Positions 11,194 through 12,804 of a DNA stretch of 64,000 nucleotides are shown one piece after another. Origin of the DNA: Notoacmeibacter marinus (GTDB taxonomy: Bacteria > Pseudomonadota > Alphaproteobacteria > Rhizobiales > Rhizobiaceae); NCBI RefSeq assembly GCF_002238045.1, contig NZ_NBYO01000001.1, positions 1,178,001-1,242,000 of the forward strand, written 5' to 3'. The notes beneath the pieces are model-generated. The model was not told the DNA's origin. It made no database searches and saw only the letters and a list, made by a program, of their open reading frames with translations. Every line of letters begins with the position of its first letter. Within the stretch, counting starts at the first letter, position 1. The translations under genes and the position numbers were made by a program.

Positions 11194-11514
11194 TCAATTC
11201 CGGCCCAGCATCAGCGTCGGGTCGAAACGTTCGTCCTTCTTCAGCGGGCGCGGCGAACGGCCCGTCACGCCATCCTCCCGCCAGCGCAGATCGGCCAGCG
11301 TCGCCTCCATCATCCGTTCCCACTCGGCTTCGCACGCGGCACGCTCCATCGCGTCCTGCCGTTCCATGCGCCGCGCGGCGCGGCGGTGATGTAGCAGCAG
11401 CCCCAGCAAACCGAGCGCGAAAGCCAGCGGCAGGATCAGCATCAAGGCCTTGATCGCGTCCGGTGCGGACTGGAACGTGTCGAGCAGATCGGCGCGGAAA
11501 TTGTAGTCGTCCAT
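11194..11514 (-). CDS. Small membrane protein of unknown function behind a structured leader
   Basis: 106 residues, ATG at 11514. A single hydrophobic segment spans about residues 22-42 (ALMLILPLAFALGLLGLLL), followed by a basic and then acidic amphipathic region (RRAARRMERQDAMERAACEAEWERMMEATLADL) likely to be a cytoplasmic coiled coil. I do not recognise the family. The SD AAGGGGAG lies 7 nt before the ATG but is locked in a 10-bp inverted repeat of the upstream leader, so translation is probably regulated. Confidence 0.75.
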   Translation of the reverse strand: MDDYNFRADLLDTFQSAPDAIKALMLILPLAFALGLLGLLLHHRRAARRMERQDAMERAACEAEWERMMEATLADLRWREDGVTGRSPRPLKKDERFDPTLMLGRN

Positions 11515-11736
11515 CGGTCAACTCCCCTTGAGAAAAGGAAATCGGCCACCAGGCTTTGGGCGCTGGTGACCGGGGAGTTGATAAACCGCGTGTACGGCCG
11601 CCCCGACCTTTAGGCTTTCGCCCTGAACATACGTCGAGGCCTCCCCGGCCATAGCTGGTCGAGAAGGATATCGGCCGGCGCGATACCGGCCAACACGCGG
11701 GGTTATCAAGCCCCAGACCGGAATATTTTCCGGCCC
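11515..11736 (-). promoter_or_regulatory. Structured RNA leader with a Shine-Dalgarno-sequestering switch (unidentified, riboswitch-like)
   Basis: Read on the minus strand. (a) A hairpin CCGGAA/TTCCGG (11733-11718). (b) A long P1 stem: GGGG (11714-11711) with CCCC (11575-11572), UUGAUAA (11709-11703) with UUAUCAA (11584-11578), CCGCGUGU (11700-11693) with ACACGCGG (11593-11586). (c) Inside P1, a branched domain: GGCCGG/CCGGCC (11691-11686/11678-11673), CUCGACC/GGUCGGG (11663-11657/11608-11602), GGCC/GGCC, and GGGC-GAAA-GCCU with a GNRA loop (11623-11612). (d) A platform: UCAACUCCCC (11581-11572) pairs perfectly with GGGGAGUUGA (11527-11518), which holds the SD, enclosing a 9-bp hairpin GGUCACCAG/CUGGUGGCC (11571-11563/11552-11544). 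Strand 11581-11572 is needed by both P1 and the SD stem, so the two folds exclude each other. I do not match it to any riboswitch class I know. Confidence 0.65.
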
Positions 11737-11748: not shown

Positions 11749-11907
11749 GGGGAAGAGTTTGGGTGAGGGAAGGGCGGAGAGATCATAGGGAGCCGCCTTG
11801 GCCGTAACTGTCCATAATTACATGATATGGCAAAATTACTTGTAATAGGACAAATATTGTATCAAAAGAGATTGTTATAAATAATATTGATTGAACTTCA
11901 TGATAAA

Positions 11908-12804
11908 ATGAAACGTAAGAAAGAGAAAATTAACGGCGTATGTCGCCTTACAGGCGAGTTCGGCAGGTTTGTCGATTCGCATTTGCTGCCGAAGGCGCTT
12001 ACGAGAGCGGACGGCGTTGATCCTTACTTGATTCAGGCAGGCTATGGGCGAACGATGAAGCGGTTCAGTAGTTGGTATGATCGGAGATTAGTGACGTCAG
12101 CAGGCGAAAAGATTTTGGCCGAGTACGATAACTGGGCAATTCGTGAACTACGTAAGCAGAAGTTGGTATGGAGTGGCTGGGGACCGATGCAGTCCCTCAC
12201 TGACGTAAATTTCTTTGCTGCCGATCAATGGGGTACCCGGACGTTAAAGGGTACAGATTGGAAGTATCTTCGCCTGTTTTTCTTGAGTCTTTTATGGCGA
12301 GCGGCCGCTAGTAACCTGAAAGAATTCTCGGAGATTAGTCTCTCGGACAGCGACCTTGAAAGGCTGCGGAATATGATTGTTGACGGTAATCCCGAGCCTC
12401 TAGAATTTTTTCCGACAACCTTGACGCAGCTTTCTACGCTCGGTGTCAATCACAATCACGCGCCTATGGCCGAACAGAAAATTATGCCGAGTACGTCGTT
12501 AAACGGAACTACTTGGAAGATGCCGATATTTCGATTTTATATCGATGGGCTTATTATTCATTTTTCTCGTCTTGCGATTGAGGAAAATCAAAATTTTTTC
12601 CCAAAATTTCTAACCGTAGGATGTCAGGACGAATTGGTGGTAACTACGCTGCCTTATAAAGGATCGTTTCAAGCCCAGAACCTCATGGTGGTTCAAATGG
12701 AATCCACCATAGGGCGGGCGTTGCCTGAAGAGATCAGTCAATTAATCAGCGAGCCGGCAAGGCAGCATATGGAGTCTATTCTGGAATCTTTGGCTACAGA
12801 ATAG
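11908..12804 (+). CDS. AT-rich orphan protein with a C-x(n)-SHLLPK motif, unknown function
   Basis: 298 residues from ATG 11908; a TTG at 11887 would add seven. Neither start has a strong SD. Base composition is sharply lower in GC than all neighbours (one 60-base stretch at 12541-12600 has only 20 G/C), codon use differs, and the flanks from about 11806 are also AT-rich, all signs of horizontal transfer. The N-terminus GVCRLTGEFGRFVDSHLLPKALT resembles the degenerate zinc/HNH-like opening of a group of accessory 'hypothetical' proteins (C-x2-C/T ... SHxxPK), but only one Cys of the pair remains. The rest is mixed alpha/beta with no membrane segment. A nuclease or defence role is possible but unproven. 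Confidence 0.7.
   Translation: MKRKKEKINGVCRLTGEFGRFVDSHLLPKALTRADGVDPYLIQAGYGRTMKRFSSWYDRRLVTSAGEKILAEYDNWAIRELRKQKLVWSGWGPMQSLTDVNFFAADQWGTRTLKGTDWKYLRLFFLSLLWRAAASNLKEFSEISLSDSDLERLRNMIVDGNPEPLEFFPTTLTQLSTLGVNHNHAPMAEQKIMPSTSLNGTTWKMPIFRFYIDGLIIHFSRLAIEENQNFFPKFLTVGCQDELVVTTLPYKGSFQAQNLMVVQMESTIGRALPEEISQLISEPARQHMESILESLATE

Follow-up and report, generated by a model that had tools for sequence, protein, structure and literature searches.

Structure of the leader

The minus strand of Notoacmeibacter marinus carries a strongly structured leader in front of a gene for a 106-aa protein, and the question is what this leader does. In the 64,000-nt stretch of DNA that was analyzed (the window), an earlier note had interpreted it as a translational riboswitch, in which a ligand would free the Shine-Dalgarno (SD) sequence. 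The minus-strand segment 11581-11572 (UCAACUCCCC) is, as claimed, an exact 10-bp complement of 11527-11518 (GGGGAGUUGA), and the latter strand ends 3 bases 5' of the ATG at 11514. No pairing as good was obtained in 200 shuffles of the downstream stretch (p = 0.005). The fold of the 241-nt leader was predicted at -117.9 kcal/mol (z = -4.82; equalled by 0 of 200 shuffles). The GNRA-type hairpin (GGGC GAAA GCCU) was also found, within a core at 11630-11608 whose pattern has a single match in the window and is absent from all 100 shuffles. These results support mutually exclusive pairings in a structured leader, one of which covers the SD.

The proposal that 11714-11706 forms the base of a P1 stem was borne out in one half. 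UUGA (11709-11706) with UCAA (11581-11578) fits the pairing between the segments designated a1 and a' (Table 1), but GGGG (11714-11711) is better placed in a local hairpin with CCCC (11702-11699). This local hairpin (11714-11699) displays a1 in its loop. CUCCCC has a further partner, 11650-11641, which the earlier note had missed. Three folds of the leader were predicted within 7 kcal/mol of each other in a calculation without pseudoknots, namely those with the a1/b1 pairings (-117.9 kcal/mol), with the SD helix (-116.8 kcal/mol) and with the C4-type fold described below (-111.1 kcal/mol), the last being 6.8 kcal/mol above the optimum when no pseudoknot term is included. The SD stays in a small local hairpin in the C4-type fold, so that a free SD is not predicted outright. 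A scan for sigma-70-type promoters at the leader found nothing.

Table 1. Features of the leader and the downstream gene, in window coordinates.
Feature	Position	Strand	Basis and remarks
5' hairpin GGGCCGGAAAAUAUUCCGGUCU	11715..11736	-	predicted folds; perhaps near the transcript start
a1 hairpin GGGG-CUUGAUAA-CCCC	11699..11714	-	loop complementary to a' of the same RNA; 130/202 copies
b1 box CGCGUGU	11693..11699	-	complement of b' (ACACGCG); C11699 shared with a1 stem; own versus swapped comparison at family level
Pz 5' arm CUUCUCG	11660..11666	-	alternative partner of Px 5' strand; p = 0.085 in this copy
Px 5' strand GGCCGGGGAG, outer stem	11641..11650	-	R1 match, covariation
Hairpin 1, internal loop AUGUUCA/AAAG, tetraloop GAAA	11600..11640	-	core motif 11630-11608; covariation
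Hairpin 2 GGCCGU-ACAC-GCGGUU	11584..11599	-	b' = 11593-11587; covariation, predicted fold
a' segment UUAUCAA	11578..11584	-	complement of a1; first base shared with hairpin 2
Px 3' strand CUCCCCGGUC	11568..11577	-	followed by ACCA 11567-11564; shared by Px, SD helix and Ph, which exclude one another
Ph hairpin CGGUCACCAG/CUGGUGGCCG, then AUUUCCUUUU	11543..11572	-	terminator-like; genome copies versus shuffles
SD segment GGGGAGUUGA	11518..11527	-	complement of 11581-11572, p = 0.005
Gene for 106-aa protein	11194..11514	-	one hydrophobic stretch; N-terminal pattern YNF..DLLDTF.S..D.IKAL

The RNA family and its distribution

A second copy of the element, 89% identical, lies upstream of a paralogous gene in the same genome. 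The core pattern ATGTYCARRGCNNNNGCYTAAAG was found in 113 viral-contig stretches and at least 115 genome-contig stretches. From 229 distinct core matches that were kept, 217 had enough flanking sequence and 202 had a Px-like helix in the expected place; family counts rest on these 202 copies (92 from viral contigs and 110 others), and a few core matches (L155, L161, L214) are probably due to chance. A covariance model, R1, was built from 34 copies (31 from genomes and 3 from viral contigs). The corresponding alignment, A1, holds 34 of the 37 copies listed; L143, L158 and L208, which were out of register, were left out.

R1 matched 11564-11650 in the window with 92.4 bits and found just two copies in the window's genome (E up to 1). 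At E up to 0.1, it gave 100 places for 100 sources and 101 places for 99 sources, some sources being matched twice and some not at all. Counting the window's genome each time, matches were obtained in 18 of 61 relatives, in 39 of 289 sampled genomes of the class (E 0.001) and in 35 of 299 genomes of the phylum (E 0.0001), 21 of which were outside the class. Several copies per genome are frequent, with 8 in G017 and 5 in G002.

A search with Rfam 15 gave nothing at gathering level, either in the window or where the element lies in 16 further loci; the two Rfam matches in those 16 loci, a hammerhead and a tRNA, sit away from it. The absence of known riboswitch classes stated in the earlier note was confirmed, with none at Rfam thresholds and weak matches only to non-riboswitch families. 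Blastn of the window leader and two viral copies against an annotated phage collection returned nothing; a third viral copy matched two Caudoviricetes sp. records over 57 nt. In the literature covered, which includes a minority of subscription journals, we found no account of this RNA family. The leader is a member of an RNA family that occurs in phages and on alphaproteobacterial chromosomes and for which Rfam gave no match at gathering level in these loci. As a separate observation, a viral contig carrying the RNA also contains a type II hammerhead ribozyme (L101 8486-8550, 70.4 bits).

Covariation and the C4-type fold

The 89-nt core consists of the outer stem Px, two hairpins, one of which has b' in its loop, and the unpaired a' before the Px 3' strand. 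In the 34-sequence alignment, 98.7% of cells were paired. Among 97 distinct sequences including those of phages, 97.2% were paired and 26 of 28 pairs had changed on both sides, in an alignment that leans towards structure because it was fitted to the model. This alignment held 738 double-change cells against 215.6 after shuffling (score 0.732 versus 0.204), and sliding the columns by 1-3 destroyed the signal (score at most 0.101). Core letters look invariant in part because the collection was selected with the core; the exact pattern occurs in just 5 of 52 model-found loci. RCCA 3' of Px is present in only 83 of 217 copies. Judged from covariation, the C4-type fold with Px and two hairpins extends across the family, and the RNA is real, conserved and of the C4 kind. 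The check for covariation among homologues that the earlier note had suggested was therefore strongly positive for this fold and modestly so for the SD helix.

The two copies with 89% identity in one genome, together with a 63-codon frame overlapping the leader, could also be explained by a DNA-level element, such as a recombination or attachment site, or by a coding sequence. This explanation is barely credible, since G-U pairs are tolerated at many helix positions and only one strand is compatible with the SD and the downstream boxes; a DNA-level repeat was rejected on these grounds. Conservation through the 63-codon frame, which the earlier note had raised as an objection, is not supported, because its TTG start is found at that place in 0 of 13 other copies and a stop falls within the first six codons in 8 of 13. 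The frame is open throughout in 4 of the 13, as GC-rich sequence permits.

Copy-specific complementary boxes

The a1 hairpin matched the a' of its own copy over at least 6 bases in 130 of 202 copies, compared to 18.2 with swapped a'. With a threshold of at least 7 nt, the 92 viral copies matched their own partners, versus swapped ones, 58 versus 4.0 times for a1, 52 versus 6.5 for b1, 40 versus 4.2 for a2 and 52 versus 5.7 for b2. The corresponding numbers for the 110 genome copies were 45 versus 4.6 (a1), 74 versus 7.2 (b1), 16 versus 2.9 (a2) and 13 versus 4.8 (b2), the b2 signal of these copies being weak (29 versus 17.1 at 6 nt). We further compared 50 held-out loci found by the model, which gave 25 versus 3.1 (a1), 38 versus 2.0 (b1), 10 versus 1.1 (a2) and 8 versus 1.5 (b2). 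These are 50 of the 58 loci listed, after removal of six of odd length (apparently cut at contig ends) and two already known; the set is free of R1 matches lacking a locus and of repeats of earlier loci, and most of its members were not preselected by the core pattern. Among the 13 copies with the core pattern in four genomes, 8 have a b' with a seven-base match to their own b1; comparisons with the b1 of another copy gave such a match in 2 of 32.

Two alignment-free tests were also applied. The first, on wide regions of 217 copies, placed the P1-type helix above the 95% level of swapped partners in 46 copies, Px in 23, the downstream helix in 18 and the upstream-downstream helix in 10. The second, on 202 copies, gave 58 for a1, 42 for b1, 26 for a2 and 44 for b2. 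The first test showed less and the second was intermediate because swapped partners are related and GC-rich, and the position-limited exact-run tests came after them.

In the viral copies with a b2 of at least 6 nt, an ATG follows within about 20 nt in 62 of 64, compared to 44% at random places in the same stretch. The window copy has UUGAUAA/UUAUCAA (a1/a') and CGCGUGU/ACACGCG (b1/b'), with a1 and b1 individually within chance; it has no separate a2 or b2 box, and only UUGA of the SD helix recalls a2. On these counts, the pairing of a1/b1 with a'/b' is copy-specific across the family, and in phage copies the SD of the following gene is accompanied by a2/b2 boxes. Copy-specific boxes on a C4-type fold are the anatomy of an antisense RNA with self-recognition.

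These results bear on the translational riboswitch of the earlier note, in which a small molecule held in the hairpin 1 loop or in the junction closed by a1/b1 would free the SD. Hairpin 1 has a conserved internal loop, AUGUYCA/AAAG (in a set that was selected with it), at which a protein or ligand could still bind, and the exclusive pairings near the SD, with folds at the energies given above, are of the appropriate kind. However, the helix needed to close the pocket varies and is specific to each copy, no Rfam riboswitch class matches, and the downstream genes belong to no single pathway, comprising antirepressors and, by eye, genes for lipoprotein-, pilin- and membrane-type proteins. A ligand sensor is therefore unsupported, and we regard it as very unlikely.

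Comparison with C4 and sRNA-Xcc1

According to the available part of PMC5320573, C4 RNA is cut by RNase P at a GG motif, its b' partly covers ribosome-binding sites and its a' determines specificity. The annotation of phage P1 gives the order a1, b1, C4, a2, b2, icd, and Rfam scored C4 there with 68.8 bits and c4-a1b1 with 51 bits. At the family level, our RNA has the same order, a1-b1-RNA-a2-b2(SD)-gene, as C4 of P1/P7 (RF01695; a1/b1 region RF03163, c4-a1b1). It also resembles C4 in its outer stem, in b' within the hairpin 2 loop, in the unpaired a' and, in viral contigs, in the antirepressor-type genes downstream. Phage copies thus share both the gene order and the neighbours of C4, which indicates a C4 layout and setting in phages. 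By analogy with C4, the GG in the Px 5' strand would be the predicted RNase P cut site, and GG at the start of Px with ACCA after Px would fit such processing.

The new family differs from C4 in a longer hairpin 1 with a conserved internal loop and in an a1 exposed in the loop of its own hairpin; chromosomal copies also have a terminator-like hairpin, and in them it is the Px 3' strand that pairs at the SD. The window has the C4 fold (outer stem, two hairpins, unpaired a'), while upstream a1/b1 boxes complementary to a'/b' are established at the family level. Downstream a2/b2 with b2 at the SD are present in viral copies and absent from the window, and in place of icd or an antirepressor the window has a gene without a family match at the cut-off. 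The C4 model (RF01695) scored the window with 18.7 and the paralogous copy L002 with 21.5 bits, below the cut-off of 45 bits, and R1 scored C4 of phage P1 with only 8.5 bits, scores too low to establish homology with C4 itself.

By sequence, sRNA-Xcc1 (RF02221) is nearer to the window family than C4 is. It has the same plan of about 89 nt with different hairpin 1 letters, and was described from integron cassettes and plasmids; the available part of PMC12444791 places it upstream of symE in Xanthomonas integron cassettes. Its model scored the window with 22.0 and the paralogous copy with 26.7 of the 53 bits required, and aligned full length and in register with the window and 6 of 13 further loci, always below the cut-off. 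Conversely, the best R1 matches in L339, L340 and L341 were the true sRNA-Xcc1 members (1498-1580, 1482-1572 and 1485-1569, respectively), in register, with E values of 0.00015, 0.0002 and 0.0013 (9,176 bases, filters off). L339, a Pseudomonas plasmid, has a1, b1 and an 11-nt b2 at the SD, with a BRO-family gene next, and L340 has all four boxes. The longest matches compared with shuffles gave upstream/downstream p values of 0.04/0.002 (L339), 0.03/0.05 (L340) and 0.15/0.49 (L341), no box of L341 being above chance. From these sequences sRNA-Xcc1 looks C4-type, a description of it for which we found no account in the literature covered.

The C4-like sRNAs of Acinetobacter baumannii, as far as the accessible text goes, are likewise multi-copy, chromosomal and apparently processed at GG (PMC5320573); they match the Rfam C4 model, whereas those of the window family do not. 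The prophage RNA isrK (RF01394), placed in Gifsy-1 in the available part of PMC12197685, has a model that matches phage P1 weakly (35.1 of 50 bits) and gave no match in the window.

The chromosomal form

Ph exceeded the 95% level of shuffles in 73 of 110 genome copies. It usually begins within the Px 3' strand, five bases in, and at least 6 T within the next 10 nt were found in 31 of 109, compared to a background of 1.4%. Viral copies had such hairpins in 27 of 92 and a T run in 1 of 87. In the window, a terminator scan with loops of up to 8 listed nothing at Ph. Pz, the alternative partner of the Px 5' strand, reached p ≤ 0.05 in 36 of 110 genome copies (5.5 expected), and a Pz-like ACGCCC/GGGCGU was seen by eye in phage P1. 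The SD helix reached p ≤ 0.05 in 29 of 110 genome copies; the comparison of own with swapped partners was modest (28 of 110 versus 15.6), and an extension of at least 4 was found in 15 of 91 versus 7.3. Viral copies remained at chance for both Pz (4 of 92) and the SD helix (5 of 92) at p ≤ 0.05. In chromosomal copies, that of the window included, Ph and the SD-pairing strand both overlap the outer stem. These findings support, less strongly than the fold and boxes, a chromosomal form in which Px, the SD helix and the terminator-like Ph may be mutually exclusive alternatives that compete for the strand CUCCCCGG.

A terminator-like hairpin in chromosomal copies would also suit a free trans-acting sRNA that ends at Ph and has its targets elsewhere, the gene having its own start and the overlap being incidental; sRNA-Xcc1 itself was reportedly termed trans-acting in the title of its 2011 paper. 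We consider this unlikely, since RNA and gene occur together in 19 of 23 homologues (see below) and the viral b2 boxes are closely followed by ATG.

A hairpin GCGGGGGCGYACCGC with a constant loop recurs behind the RNA in 12 of 58 loci (L260, L261, L266, L298-L300, L304, L316, L328, L331, L336 and L337), and is possibly a sub-type or a second element.

Downstream genes

Pfam analysis of 86 genes behind viral copies revealed ORF6N (13), P22_AR_N (10), pRha (9), Bro-N (9) and AntA (1), which may overlap; among the PHROG families listed, 16 of 25 are named anti-repressor. These genes were chosen by script (first ATG, otherwise GTG, with a frame of at least 50 codons behind an SD-like motif), and a few may be wrong frames. 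Several chromosomal copies sit upstream of small membrane proteins. A pilin-like protein (GRSMIEMLGVLAIIGVLSVGGIAGYSKAM, by eye) was observed behind the RNA in L167, L170, L201, L211, L213, L216 and L247, the first five of which come from one roe-deer reticulum assembly.

The window gene encodes, as the earlier note described, a small membrane protein; no family matches it at curated cut-offs. DUF5472 (Pfam) scored 14.2 of 25 bits, and no NCBIfam or PADLOC match was found for the 106-aa protein. The 31 aligned proteins of its family are small with one hydrophobic stretch, and have no Pfam or PADLOC match at E 0.01; one weak NCBIfam match was seen in another member. In relatives, the RNA lies directly upstream of the gene in 19 of 23 homologues (24 rows, with the partial, stop-containing G004 set aside). 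In two others, the RNA is replaced by a divergent gene for a 69-aa Cro/CI-type HTH protein (L317 545-754 and L318 461-670), which matches HTH_3 with E values of 7.5e-14 and 3.6e-16, respectively. In L319, the RNA is cut in the core and only its 3' half is left (22.4 bits); transposase-like sequence adjoins this remnant by eye. The remaining homologue had no RNA match in the 322 bases upstream, up to the contig end. Control by an RNA silencer thus seems able to stand in for control by a protein repressor and vice versa, which suggests that the 106-aa protein may be one that has to be kept off.

Divergent from the leader, the plus strand of the window (11887-12804) has a 305-aa open frame without a Pfam match; its GC content is 46.4%, compared to 62.4% for the window, and it may be an insertion beside the element.

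An alternative is an arrangement like a toxin-antitoxin system, in which the membrane protein would be harmful and the RNA would act as antitoxin in cis, perhaps also on other copies. The protein is small with a hydrophobic stretch, some genomes have several RNA copies, two homologues without the RNA have the divergent HTH gene, and sRNA-Xcc1 lies upstream of symE in the cassettes mentioned above. However, the 106-aa protein matches no known family and other RNA copies precede genes unlike toxins, and we give this reading somewhat less than an even chance.

Proposed mechanism and significance

We propose that the leader is probably a C4-type module, a1-b1-[C4-like RNA]-gene, which serves as a silencer with conditional release and not as a metabolite sensor. 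We infer processing, termination, control at the SD and the role of the protein as follows. The transcript would mostly stop at Ph or stay silent at the SD, and the membrane protein would thereby be made rarely. RNase P may process the leader at the 5' end of Px, as it does C4, and so free a small RNA. For such a mature RNA, the energies speak against an effect of its Px 3' strand on the SD in trans, because it would exchange its own fold of -45.8 for a duplex of -36.8. In the uncut leader, pairing of a1/b1 with a'/b' would allow each copy to recognize itself.

C4, sRNA-Xcc1 and the window family may constitute one large class of self-recognizing RNA silencers that would correspond, on the RNA side, to CI-type repressors. 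In phages they would hold down antirepressors. Bacteria would have added a terminator and would apply them to genes that are better left silent, among them those for small membrane proteins; copies of such genes could switch between an RNA silencer and a Cro/CI-type repressor. We put this forward tentatively and would not bet on it, the boxes of L341, which are within chance, having lowered its probability.

The findings describe a C4-type RNA with a distinct core that is widespread, often present in several copies, and placed before antirepressor-type genes in viral contigs. For sRNA-Xcc1, which plant-associated bacteria carry in multiple copies and which the accessible portions of the sources treat as a trans-acting sRNA, they offer a hypothesis at the level of mechanism. 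They also point to an uncharacterized family of membrane proteins that appears to be silenced, either by an RNA or by a protein repressor.
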